37,062 bases of DNA from a virus: IMG/VR virus record IMGVR_UViG_3300017971_000155, positions 1-37,062 of that record, one strand, 5' to 3'. A model generated the notes under the pieces. The model was given only the letters and a program-made list of their open reading frames with translations, was not told the DNA's origin and did not search any database. The position numbers and the translations under genes were made by a program. Shown here in pieces: positions 458 to 34,209 of this stretch (position 1 is its first letter; the number at the start of each line of letters is the position of its first letter).

Positions 458-473
458 GCGGCATAATTGCCGT
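458..473. promoter_or_regulatory. Operator-like palindrome, site 1
   Basis: The sequence is GCGGCA, TAAT, TGCCGT. The central 12 bases GGCATAATTGCC are identical to those of site 2 at 2381. It lies 39 bases upstream of the gene starting at 419 and thus of the leftward small-gene operon. I see no good sigma70 hexamers with it, so how it would act here is not clear. The proposed ligand is the HTH protein at 3552-3797. Confidence 0.55.
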
Positions 474-817
474 TTAAATCTAAAGCTCACGCGCCACGTT
501 TTTATCGGGTGGTAAGTCCGCTTTTACATTTGCTTTAGATGACTGGGTAATATAGCCCAGCCTCGATGTTTTTCTTTGAATCCACCGCTAGTGCTCCCTC
601 GATCAATGGTGTGTCACTGCTGATATCAGGCCCCTACAACCCGATCTCCCCATGATGTCTTCTTTCACAGCTATGAATTACTGGCGTTTTTTTTTGCCGA
701 TATTCGCCCAGGTTTACGAGTTTTTGGCTACTCCGCCCTCGACCAATGTTGACAACCGAGATGTAAGTGGATACTTATAGACCTGGGTTGTTTTTTGGTA
801 CAAAGAACCTATATGGG

Positions 818-854
818 AAAGCCCCGGTGAGCAAGTCATTGGGGCTTTTTTTTT
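818..854. terminator. Strong intrinsic terminator (hairpin plus T-tract)
   Basis: A 13-bp stem (818-830 with 836-848, two G-T wobbles) encloses the 5-base loop GCAAG and runs into nine Ts on the plus strand. Read on the minus strand it begins three bases after the stop codon of the gene at 857-1096, with a weaker TTTCCC tail, so it probably ends the lipoprotein operon. The plus-strand form is stronger, so it may also stop rightward transcripts arising in 420-800. Confidence 0.85.
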
Positions 855-856
855 GT

Positions 857-1096
857 CTAGATCAATCCGTTCTGCCGTAAACCCTTAAAAGACAAGGGCT
901 CATTGTGAGTGACTTGCAGCTTAATGATCTGCCGCAAGTTAGATAGTGAATTATTTGCAATAGCGTTTACTAGATACCAATACTCTATGGAATCATCCTC
1001 TTGATGTGGGATCAGGCTTAACGCTATGCCGCAGATCTCTGCGTGTTTAGGGCCTAGGACTTTAAAGATATCGGCGTAGGTTTTGTTGGGTTTCAT
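857..1096 (-). CDS. Unknown 79-residue protein, last gene of the lipoprotein cassette
   Basis: Starts at ATG 1096, three bases after the stop of the lipoprotein gene at 1100-1417. It ends with TAG directly beside the terminator at 818-854, so it is the last gene of a five-gene operon. The protein has no signal peptide or obvious membrane segment. It has a hydrophobic central stretch with several Ile and Leu (residues about 20-30) and a helical-looking C-terminal half. I recognise no family. Confidence 0.7.
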   Translation of the reverse strand: MKPNKTYADIFKVLGPKHAEICGIALSLIPHQEDDSIEYWYLVNAIANNSLSNLRQIIKLQVTHNEPLSFKGLRQNGLI

Positions 1097-1099
1097 GGC

Positions 1100-1417
1100 T
1101 TAATCTCCCCGGTATATGCTGGTGATCTGGCCTGTGTCGCAATCCACATCAATCGAGTAGTAATAGCACCAGTCATAGGTATTCACATTGAACTGATCAA
1201 ACTGGTAATTGTTAGAGCAATAGCTGCCAGACTCATAAACGCTTGGAGCTATGGTAGCCATAATCGGATGATCCGAACGCAAGTCACCTACCCGGATCTG
1301 AGACAACTGAGAAGCTATTGAGCTGTTGCACTTTTCTACTGAGGCACCGTTTTTACTAGAGGTCTGTGGAGCACAATTAGCCAGAGCTAGCGTGAGCAAT
1401 ATTATTATGTATCTCAT
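1100..1417 (-). CDS. Small predicted lipoprotein
   Basis: A 105-residue protein. The chosen ATG at 1415-1417 gives a typical lipoprotein leader: Arg2, a hydrophobic run of residues 3-13, and Cys15 in LANC, a lipobox with an unusual Asn just before the Cys. The mature part is short and Cys-containing, with a Tyr-rich and Asp-rich C-terminal half that may form disulfides in the periplasm. The start overlaps the end of the upstream lipoprotein gene by four bases (ATGA). An in-frame start at 1489 would put 24 polar residues ahead of the leader and is rejected. A surface or periplasmic role such as blocking superinfection is a guess from the phage context; no family is recognised. Confidence 0.75.
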   Translation of the reverse strand: MRYIIILLTLALANCAPQTSSKNGASVEKCNSSIASQLSQIRVGDLRSDHPIMATIAPSVYESGSYCSNNYQFDQFNVNTYDWCYYYSIDVDCDTGQITSIYRGD

Positions 1418-1941
1418 TGGCCAGCCCTCGTGTAGTAAACAGGCATAGCATATTGACCTGGCGGCATAGACCATTCTTTGACATTCCAATTAATGACATC
1501 ATCACCATAGCCATCCACTGCGATAAAGCCACCGCCGATAGTCACATCTTGAATGCCCTCTTTCCATGGGCAGCCATCTACATCTGTCGGGCCTGTAAAT
1601 CCGGTTTCAACTAAGTAGTTAGGGAAAGTCACTCCCCCTTGGCCCTCAACCGGGTTGTCAACACCATCTAAGTTCAAAAGCCCAGTCTCATTGCAAATAG
1701 AACGGCTGTAGGTACAGTCGGCATTGATGGTCAAAGTATCGGTGAATCCACCTATATCACCCTCCCAAGTGCCCACCATAAAGTGGCCTAAACACTCCCC
1801 TTGAGGCTCTAATTGTGCTGGGTCATCCACTGGTGGCGCTATGGCCTCCACTTGCTCCACAGCTGGCTTACAGCCGATTAAAAATAAAATGCTGAAAACT
1901 AACGTAACGCACCTCATCAGATTTTCTCTACTAAATGGCAT
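1414..1941 (-). CDS. Predicted lipoprotein with a beta-rich, Cys-containing body
   Basis: A 175-residue protein. The ATG at 1939-1941 has a clear AAGGGGAG ribosome-binding sequence five bases upstream. The leader is residues 1-23 with a good lipobox L21-I22-G23-C24. Lys follows the Cys, so retention in the inner membrane by an Asp+2 signal is not expected. The body is Gly-rich and Cys-rich, with GTWEG followed by alternating hydrophobic residues (DTLTI), reminiscent of small lipocalin-like barrels. That resemblance is weak. Phage lipoproteins are known in other phages as superinfection-exclusion factors; that role is inferred here from type and context only. Confidence 0.78.
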   Translation of the reverse strand: MPFSRENLMRCVTLVFSILFLIGCKPAVEQVEAIAPPVDDPAQLEPQGECLGHFMVGTWEGDIGGFTDTLTINADCTYSRSICNETGLLNLDGVDNPVEGQGGVTFPNYLVETGFTGPTDVDGCPWKEGIQDVTIGGGFIAVDGYGDDVINWNVKEWSMPPGQYAMPVYYTRAGQ

Positions 1942-1952
1942 ACGTACTCCCC

Positions 1953-2162
1953 TTACAAAGTGTTTAAAAAATCCCAAACTACTGATTCCAAAGCCTCATC
2001 GTTTTCAGGCGTTTTCTCGGTGAATACTGGCAGCTCTACCTCGCCTTTATCGGTTTCAATCATCAAAGAAAGGCCATCATGGTAAGCGCCTAGAATCTCA
2101 TCAGCGCCATACTCGGTGTAGATAATGCTTTTAGCCGTTTCTACTAAACCATTTAAATCCAT
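1953..2162 (-). CDS. Small, strongly acidic unknown protein
   Basis: A 69-residue protein with about sixteen Asp/Glu against three Lys and no Arg. It starts at ATG 2162, eleven bases after the end of the preceding gene. No signal peptide or membrane segment is visible. Strong acidity and small size resemble DNA-mimic inhibitors of host defence, but no motif supports that and the idea is speculative. It is the second gene of the operon that also makes the two lipoproteins. Confidence 0.7.
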   Translation of the reverse strand: MDLNGLVETAKSIIYTEYGADEILGAYHDGLSLMIETDKGEVELPVFTEKTPENDEALESVVWDFLNTL

Positions 2163-2172
2163 CTCATCTCCC

Positions 2173-2352
2173 TTAAACCTGTATATCCAGCAAAAAACTC
2201 AAGCTTTGGCCATACTTCGCCTCAAGCTTCGCAATGACAAATCCACAATCCTCAGCAAAATCCAGTGTCTCAGTCGCCTCATCGTAAGTCGGCAGGCCCT
2301 TGCAAATGTCGATAAACTCTTTGGCTATCGCAGCCATATTTAAATTTCCCAT
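2173..2352 (-). CDS. Small acidic unknown protein, first gene of the lipoprotein operon
   Basis: A 59-residue protein that is moderately acidic and probably helical. The ATG at 2350-2352 is chosen because a GAGAGG ribosome-binding sequence lies six bases upstream. A GTG at 2358 is also in frame but would overlap that sequence. It is the first gene behind the promoter at 2394-2422, and the predicted message would begin inside the operator palindrome at 2372-2387. No family is recognised. Confidence 0.7.
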   Translation of the reverse strand: MGNLNMAAIAKEFIDICKGLPTYDEATETLDFAEDCGFVIAKLEAKYGQSLSFLLDIQV

Positions 2353-2371
2353 ACGCACCTCTCACAAAAAC

Positions 2372-2387
2372 ATGGCATAATTGCCAT
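2372..2387. promoter_or_regulatory. Operator-like palindrome, site 2 (perfect arms)
   Basis: ATGGCA, TAAT, TGCCAT: a 16-bp spaced palindrome with perfect 6-bp arms. It covers the predicted start of the leftward transcript of the lipoprotein operon (-10 at 2394-2399). It also overlaps the -35 of a possible rightward promoter (TTGCCA at 2381-2386). Bound protein here could repress both directions. The site matches those at 458, 3810 and 34194. Confidence 0.65.
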
Positions 2388-2410
2388 AGTTTTAGTGTAA
2401 GCATTACAAC
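2381..2410 (+). promoter_or_regulatory. Possible rightward promoter toward the ERF operon
   Basis: TTGCCA (2381-2386), 18 bases, TACAAC (2405-2410): five and four matches to the sigma70 hexamers. If used, it makes a leader of about 240 bases before the ERF start, interrupted by the terminator at 2583-2615. It shares the operator at 2372-2387. The evidence is weak apart from position. Confidence 0.35.
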
Positions 2411-2422
2411 GCACCATGTAAA
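2394..2422 (-). promoter_or_regulatory. Sigma70-like promoter of the lipoprotein operon
   Basis: On the minus strand, TTTACA (2417-2422), a 17-base spacer and TACACT (2394-2399). The spacer contains a second small palindrome TGTAA-GCA-TTACA (2396-2408), a possible additional protein site. The predicted start near 2387 lies in the operator, about 35 bases before the first gene's ATG. Confidence 0.55.
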
Positions 2423-2656
2423 TAGGTGGGCGTGAAAAGTGCTGTATTGCCTCTAGATTCGTCCCCGCTGTATCAATTAGAGATTGACGAGGCCCTGCAA
2501 CCGCGTAACATTAGAGCATCTTTGAGATACATCCGACCGGAGAGTAATCCACAAATTCCTTTTCGGTGCTCAAATGCTCACTAAAAGATCTCTGCTTGCA
2601 GGGATCTTTTTTTTTGGGTAAACCCTTTTTGAGCAACAATTTGAAAGGATGTACCT
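2423..2656 (+). other. Gene-free leader region upstream of the ERF gene
   Basis: About 230 bases without a supported gene. It holds a short direct repeat TGCTCAAATGCTCA (2567-2580), the strong hairpin terminator at 2583-2615 and a small GGGTAAACCC inverted repeat followed by Ts (2616-2630). The AAAGGA ribosome-binding sequence of the ERF gene follows. A terminator placed between any upstream promoter and the coding start suggests either a small RNA or a leader controlled by attenuation. Confidence 0.45.
2583..2615 (+). terminator. Intrinsic terminator in the ERF leader
   Basis: A 13-bp stem (2583-2595 with 2598-2610, one T-G wobble) capped by CTTG or TT and followed by Ts to 2615 on the plus strand. 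It is partly symmetrical, so the minus strand also ends in TTTT. It lies 41 bases before the ERF start codon, so it would stop rightward transcripts begun in 2380-2580 unless anti-terminated. Confidence 0.85.
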
Positions 2657-3364
2657 ATGCACCAATCCGATACAGTCGGGGAGCTTGCTGGCGCTTTAGC
2701 CAAAGCACAAGCCACCTTTGCAAAGCTAACTAAAGACAAAGTTGCAGATGCTGGCACCTACAGCTACCGCTACATAGACCTATCAACAGTCATTGAACAT
2801 ACTAAAAAAGGCCTCTGTGAGAATGGTCTAGCCATTACACAAGCCGTAGATGTATCTGACGGCCAAACCATACTTGTTACCACCTTAATACATTCATCCG
2901 GGGAGTGGATGAAAAGCCAATACCCACTACCAAGCCCGACTCAGGTCAAACCACAAGCATTTGGCTCTGCCATCAGCTACGCTAGACGCTATAGCCTGCA
3001 GTCCATGCTTAATGTAATGGCTGATGAGGATGATGATGGGGCAAAAGCTCAAAATACCGCCTCACAGCCTCGTCCTGAGCCGCAGGCGCAAAGGCCGCCC
3101 AATCATGCCCCTGGCGCTGAAAACGCCTCAGGCGGGCTTGCAGACTTCGTAATCCCTAAAGGCAGGCTTGAGGGGAAAGCGCTTAAGGATTGCTCTTATT
3201 CCGAGATTAAAGAGTCAGTCGACTTCTTCACAGCAAATGGCACTAAAACTCCCCGCGGCTGGCCTAAAAAAGTGGTAGAGTACTTCGAAACCATCAAAGA
3301 TCAAAACCAGGCCTCATATGGTGAGCCGCCACCACCAGATTGGGCTGAAGAAATTCCGTTCTAA
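2657..3364 (+). CDS. erf: ERF-family single-strand DNA annealing protein
   Basis: A 235-residue protein. Residues about 10-130 match the ERF superfamily pattern: a Tyr-rich YRYIDLSTVI element, GLAITQ (58-63), the HSSGEW motif (79-84), GSAISYARRYSL (103-114) and an acidic DEDDDGA (123-129). A Pro-rich linker follows, then a small C-terminal domain. The last residues DWAEEIPF resemble the acidic tip of single-strand binding proteins. In P22, Erf anneals single strands and circularises terminally redundant genomes; that role fits this circularly permuted genome. The AAAGGA ribosome-binding sequence lies eight bases before ATG. It is the first gene of the rightward operon. Confidence 0.9.
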   Translation: MHQSDTVGELAGALAKAQATFAKLTKDKVADAGTYSYRYIDLSTVIEHTKKGLCENGLAITQAVDVSDGQTILVTTLIHSSGEWMKSQYPLPSPTQVKPQAFGSAISYARRYSLQSMLNVMADEDDDGAKAQNTASQPRPEPQAQRPPNHAPGAENASGGLADFVIPKGRLEGKALKDCSYSEIKESVDFFTANGTKTPRGWPKKVVEYFETIKDQNQASYGEPPPPDWAEEIPF

Positions 3365-3370
3365 GGGGAG

Positions 3371-3613
3371 ATGATGAAAAAGCTTGAGCTTACTTGGGAA
3401 ACTGACTTCGGCGATGATACTGTGGAAACCCATGCCATTGACCTTGATAAAGCCAATCTAGTCATAGACGGCAAAACAGTAGGCTCCATGGCCCAATTCG
3501 TCGCCGATGTCATCGGCCTTATGGCTCAGCTTGAAAACCTAAACGAAGCCATCATTCAGCAAAGAAAGAGCCAAGATCAGCAGCAACATTCGAATCTGAT
3601 AGTGAAACCTTAA
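3371..3613 (+). CDS. Small acidic unknown protein downstream of ERF
   Basis: An 80-residue protein starting at ATG 3371 (a second ATG follows at once) behind AAGGGGAG, only six bases after the ERF stop, so it is co-transcribed. The N-terminal half has alternating hydrophobic residues suggesting beta strands. The C-terminal half (from about residue 40) looks like a coiled coil ending in a Gln-rich tail. The last 62 bases overlap the 3' end of the antisense regulator gene at 3552-3797. It is not a recognisable RelE/ParE/HigB toxin, so it is not an obvious partner for that antidote-like regulator. Confidence 0.7.
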   Translation: MMKKLELTWETDFGDDTVETHAIDLDKANLVIDGKTVGSMAQFVADVIGLMAQLENLNEAIIQQRKSQDQQQHSNLIVKP

Positions 3614-3797
3614 CGCCCAGCACATCTGCCAGCGCCAGCGCAAGCTTTAGGCTTGGAGTATTCTCTAGCTCAAATACCCGATAAAGCGTTTTTGGCTGCA
3701 CGCCTATATCTTGAGCCGTCTTGTAAAGCCCACGCTCCCTTGTCAGCCTCTCAAGATGCTTGATAAACGCCTCATAATTGTCTTTCGTCAATTCCAT
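3552..3797 (-). CDS. HigA/antidote-like helix-turn-helix regulator (candidate phage repressor)
   Basis: An 81-residue protein. Residues about 22-66 follow the pattern of the small XRE-type addiction-module antidote proteins (COG3636-like): RGLYKTAQDIGV as the first helices, QPKTLYRVFE as the recognition helix, then LALALADVLGVKVSL. Those proteins bind operators in their own promoters. The gene lies antisense between two rightward genes and is divergent from RusA. Its promoter has a perfect TATAAT, and an operator-like palindrome fills the spacer. No toxin gene is adjacent. I infer a repressor of its own gene and of the other operator-bearing promoters. An orphan antitoxin remnant is the alternative. 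Confidence 0.82.
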   Translation of the reverse strand: MELTKDNYEAFIKHLERLTRERGLYKTAQDIGVQPKTLYRVFELENTPSLKLALALADVLGVKVSLSDSNVAADLGSFFAE

Positions 3798-3804
3798 GGC
3801 TTGT

Positions 3805-3833
3805 ATTATATGGCATTTACGTCATACTTTAAA
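3805..3833 (-). promoter_or_regulatory. Promoter of the HTH regulator, apparently leaderless
   Basis: Minus strand: TTTAAA (3828-3833), 17 bases, perfect TATAAT (3805-3810). Start of transcription is expected near 3798, one base before the ATG at 3797, so the message would have almost no leader. This resembles the leaderless cI message from lambda PRM. The operator palindrome at 3810-3825 fills the spacer and touches the -10, so bound protein should block the promoter. Confidence 0.6.
3810..3825. promoter_or_regulatory. Operator-like palindrome, site 3
   Basis: ATGGCA, TTTA, CGTCAT: the same arm length and spacing as sites 1 and 2, with one arm degenerate. Only 38 bases separate the divergent starts of the regulator (3797) and RusA (3836), so a protein bound here would cover both. 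The arrangement is typical of autoregulation. Confidence 0.6.
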
Positions 3834-3835
3834 GC

Positions 3836-4291
3836 ATGGAGTCAAAAAAATTACTATTTAAAGCTGATATTGATGTGATTAAGCATACATCAAAGAAGAA
3901 TCGCAAAACGATACGCTACAACCCTAAGACCAGAAAGCCTTTCATCGCCACAGACACCTCTGAGGATAACCACCTAAAAGTGCTCGAGGTGAAGCTTTTA
4001 AAGGCCAGGGCTCAAAATGGGCTTAAAAAACCACTCGATTGTGAGATGAGAGCTAAGTTTTTATTCCATTATCCCGATAGAGTCCTTAGGACACGTAAAG
4101 ACGGCTCAGCAGTCACACAAAGGGCTAAACGTCTTATTGACTTGTCTAATCTCATTCAAGGCGTCGAGGATGCGCTCCAGGTAGCCGGGGTCATCCTCGA
4201 CGACCTCCTTATTGAAAGCTATGATGGTACAAGACGCATCTACGGAGAGAGATCAATGCCTGCCATCGAGATTGAACTTTATGAACTTTGA
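3836..4291 (+). CDS. RusA-like Holliday junction resolvase
   Basis: A 151-residue protein. The C-terminal half carries the RusA pattern: an Asp-containing IDLSNLIQGVEDAL (101-114), then VILDDLLIES (119-128) with paired Asp at 122-123. These acidic residues correspond to the metal-binding set of RusA enzymes, which cut four-way junctions. The N-terminal 60 residues are basic and longer than in E. coli RusA (120 residues). With ERF it makes a recombination pair able to resolve junctions before packaging. Only a poor ribosome-binding sequence precedes the ATG. The operator at 3810-3825 is directly upstream. Confidence 0.85.
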   Translation: MESKKLLFKADIDVIKHTSKKNRKTIRYNPKTRKPFIATDTSEDNHLKVLEVKLLKARAQNGLKKPLDCEMRAKFLFHYPDRVLRTRKDGSAVTQRAKRLIDLSNLIQGVEDALQVAGVILDDLLIESYDGTRRIYGERSMPAIEIELYEL

Positions 4292-4697
4292 CTCGATACT
4301 GCTTACAGTCTTTGGCTTTATCACCACAGGCCTACTAGGTGTCATCTGGTGGGTCATGCAACAATACTACCAAGAGGATAAGAAGTGGAAAGGCTCATCC
4401 GACAATAGGCTTAGGCGCATTGCTCAAAAAATTGATGAGCTAGATCTTGAGGTAAAATCCTTTAAAACCATCACCACTCAAAAATTAGAAGTCACAGCCA
4501 CTAAAAACCTTTCCCAATACAAGCTAGTAAAAGAAGAAATAGCCCTACAAGCTGATAAGCACCAACACGCAATCGAGATGCTGCAAATGGAGCTTGAACG
4601 ATCAGGCGTAAAAGCTAACCATGGAAAAATTGTGCTTTTAGAAAAGAAACTAGGCGTAATCTACAATGCGCTGATCAAGGTCAAAGGGTCACAGTAA
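4281..4697 (+). CDS. Membrane-anchored coiled-coil protein, unknown function
   Basis: A 138-residue protein. The ATG at 4281 overlaps the RusA stop by 11 bases. A longer frame from 4212 would lie mostly inside RusA and is rejected. Residues about 4-28 form one hydrophobic segment ending in Trp-Trp. The remainder is charged and helical with long coiled-coil character. The layout (N-terminal anchor, long coiled coil) resembles inner-membrane spanin subunits or phage membrane tethers, but no partner or motif confirms this. The last 17 bases overlap the convergent gene at 4681-4995. Confidence 0.65.
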   Translation: MNFDSILLTVFGFITTGLLGVIWWVMQQYYQEDKKWKGSSDNRLRRIAQKIDELDLEVKSFKTITTQKLEVTATKNLSQYKLVKEEIALQADKHQHAIEMLQMELERSGVKANHGKIVLLEKKLGVIYNALIKVKGSQ

Positions 4698-4995
4698 GCG
4701 TAAACGCCACACCACCTAAAAAGCCAATAAGAAGCTCAGTCCACCAATGGGGCTTAGCCTTTTTAGACTTTTCTAACTCAGTTTCTAAATGAGCTATCTG
4801 CTGCATGTAGTTTATTTGTAGATCCTGAGCCTCTGTATAGTCGCGATATCTTGATTCTTTGACCAACACTCCCCTGTGAGGGGCCTTTTGGCCAAACTTC
4901 AATATCAAGTCTGCATCATCACTTATTGCGTGACTCGTACCGCTCATTGTTACGAGCAACAAGCTCATCAAGACTTGTATCGTCAATTTCTTCAC
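4681..4995 (-). CDS. Exported protein with C-terminal membrane anchor, possible lysis protein
   Basis: A 104-residue protein with a GTG start at 4995 and AGAGGA seven bases before it. Residues 1-23 form a cleavable-type signal peptide ending SHA. Residues about 45-80 are charged and helical. Residues 84-103 are a second hydrophobic segment starting with Trp-Trp. There is no lipobox Cys, so it is not a typical outer-membrane spanin. It overlaps the preceding gene by 77 bases in another frame, an architecture reminiscent of Rz/Rz1. It is the last gene of the late region and meets the rightward operon tail to tail. A lysis role is inferred only. Confidence 0.6.
   Translation of the reverse strand: MKKLTIQVLMSLLLVTMSGTSHAISDDADLILKFGQKAPHRGVLVKESRYRDYTEAQDLQINYMQQIAHLETELEKSKKAKPHWWTELLIGFLGGVAFTLTVTL
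4871..4888 (+). terminator. Possible weak terminator for the rightward operon
   Basis: CCCCT-GTG-AGGGG (4871-4883) followed by CCTTTT, about 175 bases past the stop of the last rightward gene and inside the convergent leftward gene. The stem is only 5 bp with a 3-base loop, so the call is tentative. No better hairpin is visible between the convergent operons. Confidence 0.3.
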
Positions 4996-5149
4996 GTCTT
5001 ATCCTCTTTTGCTCTTTCAATTTTAAAATGTTCTTAGAAAACTCAGCCTCTTGCCGCTTTTCCTTTTCACGCTTGTAAGCTATCCACATCACACCGCCAC
5101 CAAAAATGGCGGCAAGTAAAGTTTTAATCAGATCGCCAAGGTCACTCAC
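4919..5149 (-). CDS. Small inner-membrane protein with charged helix, possible spanin or holin partner
   Basis: A 76-residue protein with a GTG start at 5149 that overlaps the stop of the giant gene 5142-9914 by eight bases; AGAGG lies upstream. Residues about 7-25 form a Gly-rich membrane segment. Residues 26-76 are a strongly charged helix rich in Lys, Arg and Glu. This is the outline of an inner-membrane spanin subunit, though short for one. The following gene starts inside it in another frame. Its end-of-late-operon position fits a lysis gene. The real endolysin is far away at 30543-30935. Confidence 0.6.
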   Translation of the reverse strand: MSDLGDLIKTLLAAIFGGGVMWIAYKREKEKRQEAEFSKNILKLKEQKRIRREEIDDTSLDELVARNNERYESRNK

Positions 5150-8100
5150 CTAATACCTCTTTGATCTGTTCTTTTTTGTAGCCTGCTTTTTTAAGCCGCT
5201 CGATCACCTGCTTGCGGTATTTAGGCACATCAATGATGTTTTTAATCTCTACATCTACGCCAGCTTGCTTTAAACGCTCATAAGTATCCATCAAGCGCCT
5301 ATCACTGGGCTTGCCGGGGAAAGCTGATCTTGCCATTTTATAAGGCAATTGATCTACATTGCTATCGGGCATCCCACTAAACCAGAGGTTAACTTTCGAG
5401 CCTTTAGGTATCAGCTCCGCATAGTCATCTTTGCCAATTAGGTCACTGGCTGTGTTGATCTCAACACTTTTGCCAACACTATTAAGCCTCTTAAGCCAAT
5501 CTTTTGACCATTTAAATTTGTCATCCATCCAGGCAAAGGCATCTAAAAACCCACTCTCAGGCCCAGCAATCACATCAGGATCACCCATCACACCAGTCTT
5601 GAGCGGATTATAGTTGGCACTCATTACCGCAAAACCACCTACATCTTTATCATAAACATAAGGCATATCCTCTGCGCCTTGCTCCATTAACTTGCGTAGC
5701 TCTTTCATTTTTTCAGGCTTTCTTAAAAAAGTCCTTTCTATCATCACTCTTTGATCATCATTAAAAACTTGATTTTGCATAACAAAATCCTCAGCCTCAT
5801 CATAGGCCTTTTCTCTAGCCATTCGAGCCTGCTTTTCTGCGGTTTTCTCTTGAATCTCCCCGCGTATTCTTTGCAGATCCTCTTGAGTGGTAGGCTTAAA
5901 CTTTCTAGACTTTCTAAGCTTATCCAGCTTTTTAAGCTCAGCAGGCGTGACCTCTTGACCTAAGCCAATGTCATAAAGCCCTTGTGGCTCTGCCGCAGCT
6001 CTTTTGCCAAGTGGCTTGAATCTCTCAGAGGCCTCAATGACTTGGCCCATTGGTCTCACCTCTTGAGCCTCATCTAAAATGCGGCCTTGGAATCCCTCTC
6101 TGAATTGAGCGGCCTCAGCTTTTTCTGCGGCTTGCCTGCGCAGTTCTTTTCTAGCCTCTAAAAGCTCTCTACCGCTAGCGCGTCTGCCACCGGCCTTTAG
6201 CTCCGCTCGAACATACTCCTCAGCAAATTGAGGCTCGACTTTTAAATTCTTTTCGACAATATCTGGGAAAACTGCGCTTTGATAGACATCCTCATAAACC
6301 GGCAGGCCACCTTGTCTTAAACCTAATACTGGCGCAGCCTCTCCCTCTACTGTTGGCCGCTTGCCAAAGGCTCTAAACTTACTGGCAGCCTCAATGACTT
6401 TCTTTCGCTGCCTGCGGCTGGTCTCCACCCACTGATTCTTTTTAGAATCAAAACGCATGTTGATGGTTTCCTCAGGGCCTTTGAGCGTTACTTTTTTGAT
6501 CTCTTTTGGCACTCGATCTTTGAAACGCTTTAAAACATTGTAAGCGCCGCCCAAATAATCGACATCAGAATAAGGCGCAATGTCTAAAGTGGCCTTTAGC
6601 CCTCTACTTGTGCGCTCTACCTGGATGTCTGTTGCAAAGCCGCCAAATGGTTTACTCAGTTCACTTCTCATATCCTCAAGATATTGATCAGTCTTTTTGA
6701 TGGCTTTTAATTGCTCTTTTTTTGATCTAGCCTCAGCCGCCTCTTTTAGTTTCTCAGTCTGTCGGCGAATTCTCTCAGGCGTTTTCTCACTAAAAGGTAA
6801 TACCGTTTCTTCTTGCACAGATCTGCGCAATATTGTGCCTGCATCCTCTGCACGCTCTTTAGCTAGCTTGGTCGGGAATTGCAGCACGTTATCCACTTTC
6901 TTCACAGTGCCAGCCATGCCAGGCACCACACCTGCTTTTGCAGCCCCTATCCCAGGAATACCAGGCTCAAGCATTGATAAAGCTATAGCACTTGCTGTGC
7001 GGCCTATGCCCTCTTTCATGCCCTGTCGCTCTAGAATCTGTTCATATGATGGGGATAGAGCAGGGTCTCTTAAAAAACGAGACTTTGCCATCCTAATTCC
7101 ACCTAGAGGATCACCCTCTAGGGTCCGGTCTAAAAAACTACGAAAAGGCCCTCCAATACCACTTTCTAGCATCTCAAGTGGGGCCTCCCCGGATCCATAC
7201 TGACGGCCGGTGTCTCGATATTGGCCCCCACCCATCATGGGCTGAGCCTCCATCAATCCGCGCTTTTTAAGCTCACTGGTCGATTGCTCAAACTCAGGAT
7301 CCGCAATTTTTTCAGCATGGATAAGCTCACCATGCCTATTTAAGTGAGCAAGCACCTTTGCCTTAGTCATCGGATCTAGCATCTCATTGCGAGTCACATC
7401 CTCTCTAATTCTTGGGATATCCTCAGGCGCTACATCTACAGGCTGACCAGCTATGAAACCAGCAATGTAAGTGGCTCTAAAATCCCTTACCAAGTCATCT
7501 TTAATGGCATTCGGCAGATCCAGCTTTTTGATCTTTTGAACTGTTGGAATGCCTTTAATAGATAAAACACCATCAAGCATTCTTTTAGTCATCGCAGGGC
7601 CATACTTATCGACCATTAAGCCCATAATGGATCCTGCAATGATGCCAACAGGGCCACCCATAATGGCCCCAACAGCGCCACCCATTCCTGTGCGGCCTGT
7701 AAACACATCACCAACACCCATGCCTAGAAACTGCCAAGCGTTGACGTTTCTTGAGCCTCTGATGAAGTCTCGTGAAAAAGCCTCTTGCATCTGTAGTGAG
7801 CTGATCAACTCTAAAAAATCTTGATCGCCCATTTGAGTGAGCTTTTCAAATTCCTGCCTAAGGGTCATACCCTCGCCACGCTTGCCACTGTTTAAAACAG
7901 TCATGGCTCTAGATAGCTTTTGCTCTGAGCTGGTTTCTCTAAATGTTTTCACCATCTCAACTGCTGCCTCAGCATTGGCTTTTCTGGCAGTAGCAGCTGC
8001 AAGCTCTTGTGACTCCCTGGACTTGTTTTTAGCCCTTTGAATCATCACCTGCTTTTGGAGATCATGCCTGTTTTCAAGCTCAGCCAAGCGATCTTTTGCT

Positions 8101-9914: not shown

Positions 9915-9922
9915 TTCCCGTC

Positions 9923-21018: not shown

Positions 21019-21042
21019 AGTCTCTCCCCATCCTTTTTGGTG

Positions 21043-21056: not shown

Positions 21057-21067
21057 ATTTTAAGTAT

Positions 21068-24019: not shown

Positions 24020-24022
24020 ATT

Positions 24023-24798: not shown

Positions 24799-24808
24799 TG
24801 CCTATCCT

Positions 24809-25144: not shown

Positions 25145-25168
25145 GATTACTCCATATCGGCAAAGAAT

Positions 25169-25188
25169 AACCGGCCTTTCGACCGGCT
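25169..25188 (-). terminator. GAAA-tetraloop hairpin, possible partial terminator
   Basis: On the minus strand, AGCCGGTC-GAAA-GGCCGGTT (8-bp stem with G-T wobbles) followed by ATTCTTT. It separates the gene at 25194-25523 from the next one. The imperfect T-tract suggests attenuation or an RNA-stabilising 3' end rather than a full stop, since the genes beyond have no visible promoter. Confidence 0.6.
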
Positions 25189-25193
25189 ACCCA

Positions 25194-25523: not shown

Positions 25524-25544
25524 TGTCTAATCTCCCATTAAAAT

Positions 25545-25594
25545 GGCCGCGCCCCATCCGTGGGGCTTTCGCCCCTATTCCGTGGGTTGCGGCC
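25545..25594 (-). terminator. Nested hairpin after the major capsid gene
   Basis: An inner perfect GGGGC-GAAA-GCCCC hairpin (25562-25575) lies within an outer GGCCGC/GCGGCC stem (25545-25550 with 25589-25594), with a CCCA/TGGG step between. On the minus strand it ends in ATTTTAAT. It starts eight bases past the capsid stop codon. A strong structure here would lower read-through into the downstream genes and protect the capsid message from 3' decay. Confidence 0.75.
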
Positions 25595-25601
25595 AATATC
25601 A

Positions 25602-26792
25602 TTATACCGCAAGACCTACTAAGCCGCCTAAGAAGCTAGGTACGATGTAGTTTTCATAGTACCCGCCGTAGCGTGCCTCGTAAGAATCTGTGTTGGCGCT
25701 CCGCAACAATACAGTGCCATCCTCGCTAAACCAGCCAAAGCCAGGTCGGTGATAGCAGTTCATATAATTGTCATTGATGAAGTACATGCGATCCTCATCA
25801 CAGAAACGCTCTGGGAATACAGGGATTGCACCAGCAGTAGACATGAACTCGATACCTTTAAAAGAGATTTTTCCTTTAAGCTCAGGCATACGAGGCTCTA
25901 CGATGTACTGCTTTTGATCCTCAAGCAAGTTCAAGAGCTTTCTGAATTGAGTGAACGAAGTCACAATCATGTTAGGCACCTTGCCAGAACGTCTTTGTAC
26001 TTCCAGCATTACCTCATTCATCTTGTCAGTAGTAAGACCAGCTCCGCCAACATCCTCACGCGCAGCAGACCATCTGCGAGAGTAGTTCACGCCGTAAAGA
26101 GATCCACTAGAGAAGTCTAGAACACCTTTAAGACCTTGAGGGTCATTGTTTTCAGAGCCCTGCATAAAGATGTCATCAGCAGGCGCAGGTACTACAGAGC
26201 CAGTGATGCGTTGAACGCGTACAACTTTAGTCGCAGGTACAACTTCGATGATCTCTAAAAGATCAGATGAGCCAGAGCCAATGTTTACATAGTCTTGCTC
26301 TTCGAAGTTGGCCTCATTCCAAGAGGCATCACTGATCACTAGGTCATATTGACCACCACCGTTATCAGTAACACCACCGGCGTCAATTGTACCTAGAACA
26401 CCATCACCAGTACCGAAAAGGATACGAGAGGCGTTTCTCATGTACGACTCTACACCTTTTTGAACTTGCCATTTAGTGGCTCGAACAAATGCACCCTCAT
26501 CGTTAGCTGATGCTTTCATCGCCTCACGGTCAATCTCGATTCGAGCATAGACGCGTTTTGCGAATAGGTTTGCATCCTCTACTTGAGAGAAGTTGGGAGT
26601 AGGCAAGGTGCCTGATCCAACACCACCAGTGAAGCTTGTCGGGACCGGAATGAACATCTGCTTACCAGTAAAGTCATAGCGCTTTACCTGGCGAGCCATA
26701 AGGACGTTCGCTGAGTTGTATACGTTTTCGGAAAGTTTACCGTATTTAATCTTAAACAGATTATTTACGTTGCTAATGCTAAATTCTGCCAT
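25602..26792 (-). CDS. Major capsid protein
   Basis: A 396-residue protein that follows the scaffold gene in the usual portal-scaffold-capsid order. It has an N-terminal arm with helix (NLFKIKYGKLSENVYNS), a strand MFIPVPTSF, and the helical core KWQVQKGVESYMRNASRILFG. It also has the segment KMNEVMLEVQRRSGKVPNMIVTS followed by FTQFRKLLNLL, of the kind found in the axial domain of HK97-fold capsid proteins. The C-terminus is Tyr/Gly-rich. No cleavable pro-domain is evident; the separate scaffold gene takes that role. Confidence 0.8.
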   Translation of the reverse strand: MAEFSISNVNNLFKIKYGKLSENVYNSANVLMARQVKRYDFTGKQMFIPVPTSFTGGVGSGTLPTPNFSQVEDANLFAKRVYARIEIDREAMKASANDEGAFVRATKWQVQKGVESYMRNASRILFGTGDGVLGTIDAGGVTDNGGGQYDLVISDASWNEANFEEQDYVNIGSGSSDLLEIIEVVPATKVVRVQRITGSVVPAPADDIFMQGSENNDPQGLKGVLDFSSGSLYGVNYSRRWSAAREDVGGAGLTTDKMNEVMLEVQRRSGKVPNMIVTSFTQFRKLLNLLEDQKQYIVEPRMPELKGKISFKGIEFMSTAGAIPVFPERFCDEDRMYFINDNYMNCYHRPGFGWFSEDGTVLLRSANTDSYEARYGGYYENYIVPSFLGGLVGLAV

Positions 26793-26806
26793 TTTTCAAA
26801 ACCTCG

Positions 26807-28081
26807 TTAATAGTCAATTTGATCAAATGACCAGACATCTGCCTTAGCCGGATTCACCGGGGTTGTGACAGCATCTGATCCGCTAGTTTTCTGCACTTTC
26901 TTCGATAAGACTTCGGCAGGATTGGTTTCGCCCCACTTGGTATGAGCAAATTGACGTATATCATCTATTCCTACGCCTGCTTGCATCATCTGAACGACTT
27001 GATCAATGTTTTGCTCTAAAAGCACATCGGGGTTGATTGATTCTAGCAGTTGCTCAGCCTCATCCATTTGCCGGTCATAGACTGCGGTTTGGATGATAAG
27101 CTCAGGCGTTATCTGCTGATCAATACGGCCATCGGCTTTCAGGGCTAACAATTCCTCAGCCACTCGGTCGAATGTCTCATCATTCACATTATGAGCTTGC
27201 TGCAATTGGGTAATCTGGCCGCTTAACTCTCTTTGTTGAGCCTCGGCACGCTGTTGCCCCATTACAGATTCATATTGTGTTTTGTAAGTCTGAGCCTCTT
27301 GTTTAGCCTCATAGGCCTCGCGCTCAGCCTCACTCATACCGGCTAGCTTTTGAGCCTCATCCATAAGCTGTTTTTGTAGCGTACCCATGGCTTGCACAGG
27401 CTCTACTCCAAGGCTTTGAAAGAAACCTAGCAGGGCCTCTTTAGGTTTACCTGCCTGAGCTAGTTCAAATATATTGTTAATAGTATTGTCGACGGCACGC
27501 TGTTGCTCAACAAATTTTTGCCGCTCTGTGTTCAAATGGGCAAAGCGTCTATCAACAGCCTCATGCCCAGACCACTTGTTAAGAGCGTCTTGCAGCGTAA
27601 CCTCGACATCCTCACCATCTACCTTGTGCTTGAGCTTTAAGTCTGCTGGTAGTTTTACTGGCTTTCCGTCTAGTTCTACTTTGTAAGCCTTTGTAGTTCG
27701 CTCTCTAGCACGAACTGATTCTTTATCCTCGGCCTTTTCTTCTTTTGCCTCATCCACGGCTTTTTCATCATCATCTTGCTCTGATGACTGTTCTTTATCG
27801 GCTTCGGGTTTTTCTTCTTTTTTCTCTGCCTCAAGATCCTCTTTAGCCTTTTCTTTAGCTACTTCTTTTTCTGCCTCAGCCTTTACATCGGCCTTGGCTT
27901 TATTATCTTGAGCAAATTCCAAAGATTCTAATTGATCGAAAGAAACTGTACCCCCCGGCTCGACCGAGGTCTCAGTTTCTGTGTGCTCTGTTGACGTGTC
28001 TATCTGCAAGTCATCGCTGCTGTACGCTCCGTTATCGACTGGCGCTGACTCTGCTGCTGACTCAGTTGCTTGTGTCTCCAT
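26807..28081 (-). CDS. Scaffolding protein
   Basis: A 424-residue protein, very acidic and Glu/Lys/Ala-rich over residues about 50-125, then a small domain about 130-175 (AYKVELDGKPVKL and VTLQDALNKW). Long Gln-rich helices follow, and the C-terminus ends KADVWSFDQIDY. The small middle domain with KxxGxxxxVTLQDAL is common in phage scaffold or capsid-assembly proteins. It lies between portal and capsid genes. It should drive shell assembly and then leave. Ribosome-binding sequence AAAGGGAG. Confidence 0.8.
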   Translation of the reverse strand: METQATESAAESAPVDNGAYSSDDLQIDTSTEHTETETSVEPGGTVSFDQLESLEFAQDNKAKADVKAEAEKEVAKEKAKEDLEAEKKEEKPEADKEQSSEQDDDEKAVDEAKEEKAEDKESVRARERTTKAYKVELDGKPVKLPADLKLKHKVDGEDVEVTLQDALNKWSGHEAVDRRFAHLNTERQKFVEQQRAVDNTINNIFELAQAGKPKEALLGFFQSLGVEPVQAMGTLQKQLMDEAQKLAGMSEAEREAYEAKQEAQTYKTQYESVMGQQRAEAQQRELSGQITQLQQAHNVNDETFDRVAEELLALKADGRIDQQITPELIIQTAVYDRQMDEAEQLLESINPDVLLEQNIDQVVQMMQAGVGIDDIRQFAHTKWGETNPAEVLSKKVQKTSGSDAVTTPVNPAKADVWSFDQIDY

Positions 28082-28094
28082 TGATCTCCCTTTC

Positions 28095-30293: not shown

Positions 30294-30303
30294 CTACTCT
30301 CCC

Positions 30304-30546
30304 CTAGGGCATTTCTTCGAAGTTAGTCTCATCGTCAAAGAGATCAGACTCATCCTCTAGCTTCTCTCTGGTTTTCTTATCCAAGCTCTCAAACCCACCC
30401 TCTTGTTGATCTGGATAAACATATTGAATCTGGTGAGTGCTTTTCTGCATGGCCTTGATCTCTATGTATGACAATAATGCCACAACCATGGCCAATGAAC
30501 CGATAACAAGGCTAACGAGTGCAAATATCAATGCTAAGTCGATCAT
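30304..30546 (-). CDS. Small membrane protein after the endolysin, candidate holin
   Basis: An 80-residue protein. The ATG overlaps the endolysin stop by four bases. Residues about 3-29 form one long hydrophobic segment (LALIFALVSLVIGSLAMVVALL). The rest is polar and strongly acidic. A single-pass membrane protein translated together with an endolysin is often a holin or lysis regulator. The long acidic tail is unusual for a holin, so the call is tentative. Confidence 0.6.
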   Translation of the reverse strand: MIDLALIFALVSLVIGSLAMVVALLSYIEIKAMQKSTHQIQYVYPDQQEGGFESLDKKTREKLEDESDLFDDETNFEEMP

Positions 30547-30935
30547 TTAATTATCTCAAAGTGAACAAGATCATTGAAAGTTTGATCTTTGAATTGCTTA
30601 TCCCCATCCCAATCGCCGCCCCATCTTAGCTTAATGTTCATCGCCGCTGCAATACCCTTAACGAATCCAGCAAAGTGGTAGAAACGCTTTGTGTCATCCC
30701 AATCAATAGGATAGGGAGCCACATCGACAGCTCTGCTTGGTATTTTATTATGTTTCGAATCCGGCCACTCTACTTTTGAAAGCCCTTGCTCAAAGAGTTG
30801 ATCTTGATCGGCCTCAGAGCGATGGCCCTCTAAGATGGTGCAGTCGTAGTGCAAGATCACTGTTTTCATCAGCTCTTGCAGATCCTCATGGCATGTGTCG
30901 AGCTTTTGTAGGCTCGCTGCTGAAAAGTAAGGCAT
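30543..30935 (-). CDS. Endolysin, M15-type L-alanyl-D-glutamate peptidase
   Basis: A 130-residue protein matching the T5-type M15 peptidase pattern: LEGHRSEADQDQLFEQG (35-51), SKHNKIPSRAVDVAPYP (60-76) with zinc ligands His62 and Asp71, and LVHFE (123-127) with His125 as third ligand. It cleaves the stem peptide of peptidoglycan. There is no signal peptide, so export needs a holin; the next gene is a small membrane protein. It overlaps the terminase stop and the next start (both short). Its placement between terminase and portal, far from the other lysis candidates at 4681-5149, is uncommon. Confidence 0.88.
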   Translation of the reverse strand: MPYFSAASLQKLDTCHEDLQELMKTVILHYDCTILEGHRSEADQDQLFEQGLSKVEWPDSKHNKIPSRAVDVAPYPIDWDDTKRFYHFAGFVKGIAAAMNIKLRWGGDWDGDKQFKDQTFNDLVHFEIIK

Positions 30936-32365
30936 CAGTCTACCTCGTCAAATAGATCCTCGTCGTTTATCGAATAGCTCCAATCATCCTTTTGAGCCTT
31001 AAAGTCTTCATCCATTGTGTACCAAGGTTTCCACTCTTTATTCATTTCCTCTTTGTTTTGAGGCTCAAGCGCTCTGTTCATATCGTAGCCAAGCGCCCCT
31101 AAAATGTAACGCAGATTATCAATCTCGTGATCATTCTCTTTAGGGATCTTTCCGTTTTTATCCCTTATATAGTTGAGCATCTCTTTCATTGTGTTTTTAG
31201 CGCGATCAGAAAAGATGATCATATCTGCAAGCAGCATGTCTTTAATTAGACCTAAGCCTTGCTCTTTCTTGTTTAGTGCTTTTGTAGTGGGCACCCAGCC
31301 ATCATCAAACTGGTCAGCCATCTCGGTTTGAAACCAGGCAGCCGCCTCATCATAGCACTGATACCAATCCGCCTTGGCATAGAGCTGATACCTTTTATTG
31401 ATAATGCGCTTACCGATCACGCTCACTGATGTCTGTCGCTGATCAGTCTCGTAGATCTCATCTAAGATGTAGAGCTTTCTTGTGTAAGGATTGAGCGCTG
31501 CAAAGAGCACAGCAAAGCAAGTATGAGTGCCAGGATCTGCTGAGACTATCCATTGCAGCTTGTGCATGTCTTTTTTAAGGTCACGCATCAGCTCATCATG
31601 CTTTCTAACGTGGCGCTTTGGATCAAGCATTGGGAATATGCTGTTTTTGCCACCAAACACTTTCTTTACCATATATTCCCGCTCCCAGACGTCCCCCTCT
31701 CCCCGGCGGTAAAGCTCAAGCCTTTTGGCATCAAGCACCTCTTTGGCTATGTGGGGATTCTCATAGGATGTGAACTGAAAGAACTTCTTTTTATCATTCT
31801 CTTTGAATTCATCCTCTGTGTGATAGAAGTGGTGATCCTCAATCTCTGGTGGCGTACCGATGATTATTAAGGGGCTGTCATGGGCTGCGTAGTTAGGATC
31901 CATAGCCTCATGGAATTCCGGGCGAAAGTCTTTGAATTCATCATAGACTGTGAGCCCTCTTGGCTTTACTCCACGGTAAGCATCAATATTGTCTGATCCG
32001 TCAAGCTTAATGAAAGAGCCATTGGTAAATCTAAGGCGCATCTCTGTGTTATTAACTCCCCGAGAGCCCTCGTAAAGCCAGGCTCTTGGGCCAAATGTCT
32101 GAATACGTCTTGACGCCCAAGTGATCTCTCTTGCTTGCTTTGCGTATGGAGCAAAATAGTAATTTTCAGAGCCGGGATTACTTTGTGCATATCGCCATAA
32201 AAGGTAGCAGATCAGCTCAGTCTTGCCAAAGTTTCGGCCACATTTGCCAAAGATCTGCTTTATCTCATCATTAAAGAGCGCTTTGCCGATCTCAACCTGT
32301 GCGTCATGGGGCTCCCAATGAGCGTGCAGGCCCTCAATGATCTCAATGTAATTATTTAGATCCAT
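30935..32365 (-). CDS. Terminase large subunit
   Basis: A 476-residue protein. The ATPase has Walker A GKCGRNFGKT (40-49) and Walker B LTVYDEF (138-144), with the coupling-type GTPP at 169-172. The RNase H-fold nuclease has Asp276 in SADPG, Asp338 in CYDEA and the final acidic DHEIDNLRY (411-419). The ATG at 32365 overlaps the previous gene by 14 bases. A TTG at 32422 is in frame but would overlap by 71. It cuts and pumps DNA into the procapsid. The circular permutation of the assembly points to headful packaging. Confidence 0.92.
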   Translation of the reverse strand: MDLNNYIEIIEGLHAHWEPHDAQVEIGKALFNDEIKQIFGKCGRNFGKTELICYLLWRYAQSNPGSENYYFAPYAKQAREITWASRRIQTFGPRAWLYEGSRGVNNTEMRLRFTNGSFIKLDGSDNIDAYRGVKPRGLTVYDEFKDFRPEFHEAMDPNYAAHDSPLIIIGTPPEIEDHHFYHTEDEFKENDKKKFFQFTSYENPHIAKEVLDAKRLELYRRGEGDVWEREYMVKKVFGGKNSIFPMLDPKRHVRKHDELMRDLKKDMHKLQWIVSADPGTHTCFAVLFAALNPYTRKLYILDEIYETDQRQTSVSVIGKRIINKRYQLYAKADWYQCYDEAAAWFQTEMADQFDDGWVPTTKALNKKEQGLGLIKDMLLADMIIFSDRAKNTMKEMLNYIRDKNGKIPKENDHEIDNLRYILGALGYDMNRALEPQNKEEMNKEWKPWYTMDEDFKAQKDDWSYSINDEDLFDEVD

Positions 32366-32576
32366 TCTTTTCTTTAAGGGCCTTAGTTCTGGGATTGATC
32401 CCCACTGTTGGTAAGTAATCAATGATGTCTAGCACTCTATCTGCCCAATCTTTGACAAGGGGATGAGCCTTACCTCTGTTCACTAGCCTCGAGACTGTGG
32501 TGGCCACTAAAATGAGCCCTACGCTGATGTGGCCAAGGGCCTCAACAATTGTCTTTATGTGTTCTAGATATTCCAT
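32352..32576 (-). CDS. Small single-pass membrane protein, possible holin
   Basis: A 74-residue protein. Residues about 12-32 are a hydrophobic segment (EALGHISVGLILVATTVSRLV). A basic loop follows and the C-terminus contains LPTVGINPRTKALKEK. Similar TxGxNPxTK endings occur, from memory, in small phage membrane proteins of unknown role. The start may be ATG 32576 (chosen, behind GGGGAG) or GTG 32588 overlapping the upstream stop. With the candidate at 30304-30546 it gives two possible holin genes near the endolysin. Confidence 0.6.
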   Translation of the reverse strand: MEYLEHIKTIVEALGHISVGLILVATTVSRLVNRGKAHPLVKDWADRVLDIIDYLPTVGINPRTKALKEKNGSK

Positions 32577-32584
32577 AGCTCCCC

Positions 32585-32884
32585 TCACTGTATATGCTTA
32601 GGGTCTATCTTATCCTCATAGTCATCAAGCAAGAAACCATGAGACTTGCCCTCAGAATCAAAGATCACTATTTCACCGTCTCTTAGAATCTCTGTGGCTG
32701 CATAGGTAAGGTTTCCAAAGTCTAGGGGAAAAGAGAGAGTTTTAGAGTTTTGATGCAGTAGATCTCTGATCAGATCCTTTAAGTAAGTGCGTCCCTCAGT
32801 AGACATAAAGATAGTATTCTGTGGCTTTTCCTCGCAGATGATCTCCATCACCTTATCGAGATGCTCTTTATGCTCTTGGCTCAT
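32585..32884 (-). CDS. Unknown small protein before terminase
   Basis: A 99-residue protein. The ATG at 32884 has AGGA nine bases upstream and overlaps the preceding gene by 17 bases. A TTG at 32941 would overlap by 74 and is less likely. The N-terminal third is helical with HKEHLDKVMEIICEE. The C-terminal half looks beta with DGEIVIFDSEGKSHGFLLDDY. No family is recognised. Confidence 0.65.
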   Translation of the reverse strand: MSQEHKEHLDKVMEIICEEKPQNTIFMSTEGRTYLKDLIRDLLHQNSKTLSFPLDFGNLTYAATEILRDGEIVIFDSEGKSHGFLLDDYEDKIDPKHIQ

Positions 32885-33020
32885 CGCCCAATTCCTGAAA
32901 GATGGACCAGATGGTTTTGAGTGTTGCGAGTTCTTTTTCAATTTCCCTCACATCCATGGCTGCATCAGCAACACCGTGCCAATCCTCAGTAGCCATTTTC
33001 ATCCTCATGTAGTCTACCAT
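32868..33020 (-). CDS. Very small helical unknown protein
   Basis: A 50-residue protein if it starts at ATG 33020. Starts at 32996 (better ribosome-binding sequence AGGA, 42 residues) or at TTG 33080 (70 residues) are also in frame. It is helical with VREIEKELATLKTIWSIFQEL. It overlaps both neighbours, as do most genes in this dense run. The start is uncertain and so is the exact product. Confidence 0.5.
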   Translation of the reverse strand: MVDYMRMKMATEDWHGVADAAMDVREIEKELATLKTIWSIFQELGDEPRA

Positions 33021-33210
33021 CTGATCTTTTTGAATCTCTAGAGAGGTTATTTGAATAGGTATGTCTTTGCTCGTTTTCAAGACGTTTTACCAGCCCTTGT
33101 AGCAAGTGAATGGCGTAGCTATACCCAACATCATCCACAATAAAGCCCACAGCGTTAAGTAGATTGTTTTCCGCTATCTGCCACGGTGGCTTTTTCTGAG
33201 ACCACATCAT
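32986..33210 (-). CDS. Unknown small protein after the terminase small subunit
   Basis: A 74-residue protein starting at one of two adjacent ATGs (33210 or 33207) behind GGGGAG. The N-terminal half is helical and hydrophobic (NNLLNAVGFIVDDVGYSYAI), while the C-terminal third is polar and basic. It overlaps the end of the small-terminase-like gene by 56 bases and the next gene by up to 35. No family is recognised. Confidence 0.55.
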   Translation of the reverse strand: MMWSQKKPPWQIAENNLLNAVGFIVDDVGYSYAIHLLQGLVKRLENEQRHTYSNNLSRDSKRSDGRLHEDENGY

Positions 33211-33673
33211 CACTCTCCCCTACCTCTAAAAACCTATCTTTTTTTAATGCCTCTTGCAGTCTAGCTTTATTCACACTTGCGTCATTATTGACATCATTGG
33301 CCTCATCTACAGCCTGCTGGTGAGATTCCTCAGCGTGATGCCGGTGCAGCTCTAGAAAGTATTGAATAAAACGCTCGTTTTTCTCATTCTTGGCCAGATC
33401 AAAGGCAATGTCGTGAATCTCTTTGTAAGCCTCTGATCTACCTAGACTGATTGCGTCAAAAACTTCGGGATTCTCTTTCATTCTGCGCTCTAGCGTGCGC
33501 TTGCCACAGCCCAATGATCCGGCAATGACAGCAAGCGGCAAACCTTGTTTAGCCATGCGGTAGATGATCTGCACAGTTTCAGCATTGAACTCTACTCTGG
33601 GCCTGCCTTGTGGCCTTTTCTCTCTTTTCGTTATGACTTCGGGGAGCAGTGCTTTTTCTTTATCATCCGGCAT
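33155..33673 (-). CDS. Probable terminase small subunit
   Basis: A 172-residue protein. After a basic N-terminus, residues about 31-66 form a helix-turn-helix (AETVQIIYRMAKQGLPLAVI then GCGKRTLERRMKENPE), followed by SLGRSEAYKEIHDIAFDLAK and a helical, acidic C-terminus. DNA-binding N-terminus, helical oligomerisation part and a position four small genes before the large subunit match small terminases, which select the packaging site. A general phage DNA-binding protein is the alternative. Confidence 0.65.
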   Translation of the reverse strand: MPDDKEKALLPEVITKREKRPQGRPRVEFNAETVQIIYRMAKQGLPLAVIAGSLGCGKRTLERRMKENPEVFDAISLGRSEAYKEIHDIAFDLAKNEKNERFIQYFLELHRHHAEESHQQAVDEANDVNNDASVNKARLQEALKKDRFLEVGESDDVVSEKATVADSGKQST

Positions 33674-33863
33674 CTGTGCTTTGTTCTTTTCGCTGCAATG
33701 CTCGCTCTAGGTCTACTAAGGTCTGGGCAATTATCTGAAAGTCATCCTCGAATTTAGAGCCAGGCAGGATTACTTCTTTGCCTTGAGTGATATGCACAAT
33801 GCGTTTTACTTCGGTTAGCGCATGATCATATGAGGATATGATGACTTGAGAATCGTCGCTCAT
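33663..33863 (-). CDS. Unknown 66-residue protein
   Basis: Starts at ATG 33863, overlapping the preceding stop by four bases, and its end overlaps the small-terminase-like start by 11. It is mixed alpha/beta with an acidic middle and a helical C-terminus (FQIIAQTLVDLERALQRKE). No motif or family is recognised. It is the second gene of the presumed late operon. Confidence 0.6.
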   Translation of the reverse strand: MSDDSQVIISSYDHALTEVKRIVHITQGKEVILPGSKFEDDFQIIAQTLVDLERALQRKEQSTDAG

Positions 33864-34165
33864 TGCTTTATCCTCTTACTAGTTGCTTTTTTCTTAGGGG
33901 CCTTTTTCTTTGAGGTGCCAAGTGTTGGTTCGGGGTCTGGTTGCTGCCAGGCCCCGTTTTTCATTATTTCGATAGTTTTAAAAAGAGTCTCAAGCCCTAC
34001 ATCACCAAGAGAAAGTTCGATGTGCTTTTCGATATCCTCAGCCAGTTTCTTTTCTAGAATCTCCGTTACCTTAGCCTCTGAGAGTTTATGGCCATGGTTC
34101 GTTTGAAAGCTGTCAAATAGCTTTTTGATACGTTTTTTCAGCTGAATCTCATTAAAATTATTCAT
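33860..34165 (-). CDS. Unknown first gene of the late operon, basic tail
   Basis: A 101-residue protein. It is helical with Lys/Glu-rich segments (residues 1-70), then a Pro/Gly linker and a strongly basic tail with KKKAPKKKATSKRIKQ, which could bind nucleic acid. The ATG lies only seven bases past the -10 of the promoter at 34172-34200, so the message would be leaderless. The gene opens the operon that includes terminase and virion genes. No family is recognised. Confidence 0.65.
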   Translation of the reverse strand: MNNFNEIQLKKRIKKLFDSFQTNHGHKLSEAKVTEILEKKLAEDIEKHIELSLGDVGLETLFKTIEIMKNGAWQQPDPEPTLGTSKKKAPKKKATSKRIKQ

Positions 34166-34171
34166 GCCTTA

Positions 34172-34200
34172 ATTGTGGCTTAATCACTTATCTATGTCAA
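34172..34200 (-). promoter_or_regulatory. Sigma70-like promoter of the late (terminase and virion) operon
   Basis: Minus strand: perfect TTGACA (34195-34200), 17 bases, CACAAT (34172-34177). The predicted start is about 34165, the A of the first ATG, so translation would begin on a leaderless message. Operator-like site 4 overlaps the -35 entirely. No separate late activator gene is recognised. Confidence 0.55.
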
Positions 34201-34209
34201 ATAAGACAT
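34194..34209. promoter_or_regulatory. Operator-like palindrome, site 4
   Basis: ATGTCA, AATA, AGACAT: arms of six with a 4-base A/T spacer, as at the other sites. Arms differ from the consensus ATGGCA at the fourth position. The site covers the -35 TTGACA of the late promoter. A repressor bound here would keep virion genes silent. Confidence 0.5.

Follow-up and report, generated by a model that had tools for sequence, protein, structure and literature searches.

A palindrome shared by intergenic gaps of an uncultured podovirus-like phage as a possible operator of a small HTH regulator

Does a short palindrome that recurs in the gaps between phage genes mark the operators of a single regulator? 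The question is raised by the IMG/VR virus record IMGVR_UViG_3300017971_000155, whose 37,062 bases in full are the window analyzed here. A sequence-only reading had described one 16-bp palindrome, ATGGCA-N4-TGCCAT or near variants, at four promoter regions and had proposed that one small protein with an antitoxin fold switches all phage operons in an immunity-type circuit.

The phage genome and its four palindromic sites

Since the ends of the record repeat 123 bases, the window very likely represents a complete genome that maps as a circle of 36,939 bp. Its genes include those for a P22-like portal, a podovirus-type major capsid protein, a terminase and an endolysin, for an ERF annealing protein and a RusA-like resolvase, and for a tRNA-Asn. 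Named phages are distant relatives only, portal and capsid showing about 21-23% identity to Arthrobacter phages. In the stretch that runs leftward from about 419 round the circle to 4681, nearly all genes are located on the minus strand. A short rightward block (2426-4697) contains the gene for the ERF-type single-strand annealing protein (2657-3364, plus strand; PF04404, E 3.7e-21; phrog_2324, E 7.6e-41), located downstream of site 2, and the gene for the RusA-like resolvase (3836-4291, plus strand; PF05866, E 1.7e-6). A leftward HTH gene (3552-3797) lies within this block and is divergent from rusA. Two observations on the gene map were made in addition. Followed upstream by eye, the frame of the ORF at 36730-37020 crosses the junction of the record and reaches an ATG near 167, and the gap at 1-167 is therefore coding in the circular genome. 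At 34581-35345 a PAPS-reductase-like protein of 254 aa is encoded (phrog_424, E 3.8e-46), for which IMG/VR holds 70 relatives with 34-60% identity.

The sequences and positions of the four palindromes were all verified, and every one lies inside a gap between genes. Site 1 (458-473, GCGGCATAATTGCCGT) has three mismatches to ATGGCA-N4-TGCCAT and is located 38 bp ahead of the ATG starting at 419, in the terminal part of a 437-bp noncoding gap. Site 2 (2372-2387, ATGGCATAATTGCCAT) is a perfect 6-4-6 palindrome with no mismatch; the 67-bp gap that holds it separates the leftward lipoprotein operon from the divergent, rightward ORF52/ERF genes. Site 3 (3810-3825, ATGGCATTTACGTCAT) deviates from the consensus in two of its 12 positions and lies in the 38-bp divergent gap between the HTH gene and rusA (P 0.0005 for that gap in shuffles), and site 4 (34194-34209, ATGTCAAATAAGACAT) is a weak match with three mismatches. 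The 12-base core GGCATAATTGCC is identical in sites 1 and 2, as had been reported, and is the only 12-mer common to different gaps (P ~0.001 as a shared palindromic 12-mer, from shuffles). Four related sites are thus present; the description as one palindrome goes too far, as they are unequal, with zero to three mismatches, and the count over the whole window is at chance level.

Occurrence of the palindrome in gaps and genes

When up to three mismatches to ATGGCA-N4-TGCCAT were allowed, 24 matches were found in the whole window, with 23.1 expected by chance, and 20 of these 24 lie within genes. The raw motif is therefore not rare. The other four are located in gaps, although gaps make up only 2.2% of the start positions; by odds ratio, matches are about 8.9-fold denser there (P 0.002 in Fisher's test, and P 0.014 without the seed site). 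Shuffled gap sets (n = 400) served as a seed-corrected test, in which the choice of the seed palindrome was allowed for. With the spacer fixed at four, none of the 400 shuffles reached the observed count. With spacers of 0-8, three other gaps were reached in 4 of 400 shuffles, and in none of them with one gap at two mismatches or fewer.

A matrix trained on sites 1 and 2 only placed site 3 at rank 4 and site 4 at rank 16 of 36,939 positions. Scanning of the whole window for equal-scoring sites within genes gave a divided result: on the bare consensus there are many for sites 1 and 4, but not for sites 2 and 3. The matrix ranked one stretch inside an 80-aa gene (30304-30546), at 30468-30483 (ATGACAATAATGCCAC), above site 3; it is either a chance match or an internal operator. 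A degenerate form, ATGNCA-N4-TGNCAT, which was written after the sites had been seen, has five matches in the window with at most one mismatch. Sites 2, 3 and 4 are among these five, and as many matches were found in one of 100 shuffles.

Promoter-like elements and conservation at the sites

We infer promoter function at the sites from matches to the sigma70 consensus, not from mapped starts. The top score of the scan of positions 1-5200 was obtained for the predicted promoter of the HTH gene (3805-3833, minus strand; TTTAAA-17-TATAAT, 10/12), and site 3 lies inside its 17-bp spacer. Site 2 begins six bases past the -10 of the predicted promoter of the leftward lipoprotein operon (2394-2422, minus strand; TTTACA-17-TACACT, 9/12) and overlaps the presumed leftward start region. 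It also contains the -35 of a possible rightward promoter found in a relaxed scan (2381-2410, plus strand; TTGCCA-18-TACAAC, 9/12). The predicted late-operon promoter (34172-34200, minus strand; TTGACA-17-CACAAT, 10/12) has its TTGACA -35 within site 4, and this box is itself one arm of the palindrome. The claim that sigma70-like hexamers overlap or abut the palindrome at three sites was thus confirmed, for sites 2, 3 and 4; no sigma70-like promoter of at least 8/12 reads past site 1. Downstream of the possible rightward promoter a 52-aa ORF is present (2426-2614), and a 12-pair terminator (2583-2610) precedes the ERF gene; the ORF may give rise to an early peptide or an early RNA, and ERF could be controlled by read-through.

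Using TerL as query, a sister phage was identified in a 13.4-kb partial contig (L026), in which TerL is 74% and the portal 72% identical and the order of the packaging genes is the same. Upstream of its late genes, at 6722-6738, the contig carries ATGACATATTTGACATA, compared with ATGTCTTATTTGACATA in the window, with 15 of 17 positions identical. This 17-bp block at site 4 is the best local alignment of the two gaps, one in the window and one in the sister contig (10 of 2000 shuffles were as good), and given the shared TTGACA -35 box the identity of the block has P ~2e-4. The orthologous late promoter of the sister phage reads TTGACA-17-TATCTT at the same place, and an exact match to ATGNCA-N4-TGNCAT is found there. 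Because both the block and the degenerate motif are kept in the sister phage, site 4 is better than its consensus score suggests. In the other TerL relatives no clear equivalent of the block was detected, one of them (L038) having a single match with two mismatches. Neither the sister contig nor L139, a further relative, has a counterpart of site 1 at the corresponding position. Palindromes in the small terminase genes (window 33279, sister contig 8001) were rejected as a conserved pair, as they cover different residues. Queries with ERF and portal revealed no related locus in IMG/VR, and the relatives of a 424-aa protein (26807-28081) are only about 30% identical. Taken together, occurrence of the same motif at several putative promoters above chance is supported, for sites 1-3 by sequence and for site 4 by conservation, and we regard the tie between this palindrome family and promoters as modest but real.

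The noncoding gap that holds site 1 (420-856) matches no Rfam family. It contains a 42-bp noncoding block (702-743) that is 95% identical to L139 6481-6522, although TerL of L139 is only 52% identical; with L026 4611-4664 the identity is 78% over 54 bp, and the block contains GGGCGGMGTAGCCAAWAACWCGT. No convincing covariation was seen among the three sequences, and the block might encode a structured RNA or serve as an origin or packaging site. Site 1 was considered as part of a conserved RNA and rejected: the conserved core is only about 50 nt long, is located more than 200 nt away and shows no clear covariation. Beside the block, at 749-854, a rightward TTGACA is followed by TACTTA or GATACT and then by a strong terminator (815-851), which makes this stretch a candidate small RNA of about 70 nt. 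At the matching place the sister contig has, by eye, a terminator-like stem with a T run.

The HTH protein and the proposed circuit

The proposed ligand of the sites is the 81-aa HTH protein encoded on the minus strand at 3552-3797, which is best called a small Cro/C1-type regulator. Its matches are below the cut-offs for the Pfam family HTH_3 (22.2 bits, cut-off 23; E 1.5e-4), for dnstrm_HI1420 (PF21716; 21.7, cut-off 27; E 1.8e-4) and for the NCBIfam families TIGR02684 (28 bits, cut-off 53.7) and HigA TIGR02607 (14.5, cut-off 47.7), and its best PHROG match is the transcriptional repressor phrog_4268 (E 1.6e-7). A single-sequence structure model has five helices with a mean pLDDT of 53, which is too low for a fold search. 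No near homologue was found in IMG/VR, GTDB genomes, phages and plasmids, the IMG/VR and genome scans yielding only domains with 30-39% identity, and no homologue was detected in the 13.4 kb of the sister contig. The HTH gene is alone on its strand, convergent with an 80-aa ORF (3371-3613) that has no PHROG match, and no toxin was recognized among its neighbours. With subthreshold matches, a repressor as best PHROG family and no recognized toxin nearby, the antitoxin fold could not be upheld.

A divergent intergenic gap is the usual location for the operator of an autoregulated repressor. In the window a related palindrome lies on predicted core promoter elements at three gaps, one of which separates the divergent HTH and rusA genes, and it is from this position that we infer the HTH protein to be the binder. 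It is slightly more likely than not that one dimeric Cro/C1-type regulator, most likely the 81-aa protein, uses sites 2 and 3 as operators, and with them probably site 4 and possibly site 1. This reading is supported by the seed-corrected shuffles, the shared 12-mer, the rank of site 3, the hexamer overlaps and the conservation in the sister phage. Against it, many matches within genes score as well as sites 1 and 4 on the bare consensus, site 1 has neither a promoter nor a counterpart in the relatives, and the sister contig, which keeps site 4, shows no HTH homologue. An HTH dimer on site 3 would occupy the stretch that separates the -35 from the -10 of its own promoter, next to rusA, and would limit both its own synthesis and that of RusA. 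On site 2 the protein would lie over the lipoprotein operon's start region and the -35 on the ERF side and would limit both, and on site 4, less surely, it would mask the late -35. Steric repression that times early and late transcription would be the simplest consequence.

Lysogen upkeep, lysis delay and early shut-off are candidate roles that cannot be told apart. Searches of the whole circular record for a tyrosine integrase (PF00589) and a serine resolvase (PF00239) gave no match, while the controls for both searches worked, and a timing role is therefore at least as likely as immunity. The proposed immunity-type circuit accordingly lacks support, no other sign of lysogeny having been seen, and control of all phage operons was likewise too broad a claim: site 1 is without an adjacent promoter, and site 4, despite its conservation in the sister phage, is a weak match to the consensus.

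Other explanations of the palindromes were weighed against this reading. They might be operators of a host regulator or of another phage DNA-binding protein instead of the HTH protein, as the sister phage keeps the site 4 block without a detectable HTH homologue and half-site position 4 is mostly G at the early sites and T/A at the late sites. However, the sister contig is partial, and the location of site 3 in the spacer of the predicted HTH promoter is a typical autoregulatory layout; we consider this explanation rather unlikely. It also seems improbable that sites 2 and 3 alone form a local operator pair round the ERF and RusA genes, sites 1 and 4 being due to chance or serving otherwise, as a hairpin or as -35 context. 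Among the gap sites, only this pair has at most two mismatches, site 4 reaches only rank 16 and site 1 has no promoter, but the 12 identical bases in sites 1 and 2 and the conserved block at site 4 argue against such a restriction.

Formation of RNA hairpins by sites 1 and 2 near the 5' ends of two leftward transcripts, acting in stability or attenuation, deserves very little credence. Both sites can fold on the leftward strand with the loop AUUA, and the stem pair beside the core differs in both bases, being C-G at site 1 but U-A at site 2; GTTTTTG follows site 2, which scored as terminator-like. Their folding energies, however, are ordinary compared with shuffles (z 0.2 and -1.0), sites 3 and 4 would lie outside the leftward transcripts of their own promoters, and no promoter was seen at site 1. 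The seed-corrected gap test and the conservation at the late promoter also make it quite unlikely that short palindromes were simply picked out after the fact in AT-rich promoters, even though the whole-window count equals expectation and one in-gene site scores above site 3.

Dispersed phage operators are well known, and the principle of one regulator with dispersed operators is already established for lambda, mycobacteriophages and others. The C1 repressor of P1 likewise has operators scattered over the genome, but C1 sites are asymmetric whereas those found here are palindromic. Lambdoid immunity regions (CI/Cro, OR, OL) are similar in that a small HTH gene and an early gene point away from each other, an operator lies within the promoters of this pair and another early promoter has a second operator. 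They have three operators per promoter and the present phage has one; here, moreover, no Cro/CI pair was recognized, no integrase was found and the 81-aa protein is too small for a cleavage domain. PaaR2/YdaS of the E. coli O157:H7 cryptic prophage CP-933P is also an HTH regulator that acts through inverted repeats, located at the phage promoters PR and PRM and at a putative PL, but it heads a toxin-antitoxin operon and its 18-bp repeats are clustered, whereas here the 16-bp sites are single and no toxin gene was recognized (PMC8630535). The repressor of Cluster A mycobacteriophages resembles the proposed regulator in having sites dispersed over the genome; it has up to about 30 asymmetric operators or stoperators, mostly away from promoters, in contrast to the four palindromic sites found here, three of them at predicted promoters (PMC6550527; PMC9283540).

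An 81-aa autoregulated HTH protein may, as a rather doubtful possibility, act through single palindromic sites as a global timer over early recombination, lipoprotein and late structural promoters, with a late site kept in the lineage, in a phage without recognizable integrase or resolvase. If the operator reading is true, it would link an orphan HTH protein to its predicted DNA sites. A lineage of uncultured podovirus-like phages, without a close named relative in the collections searched, would then have a compact control circuit open to direct testing.
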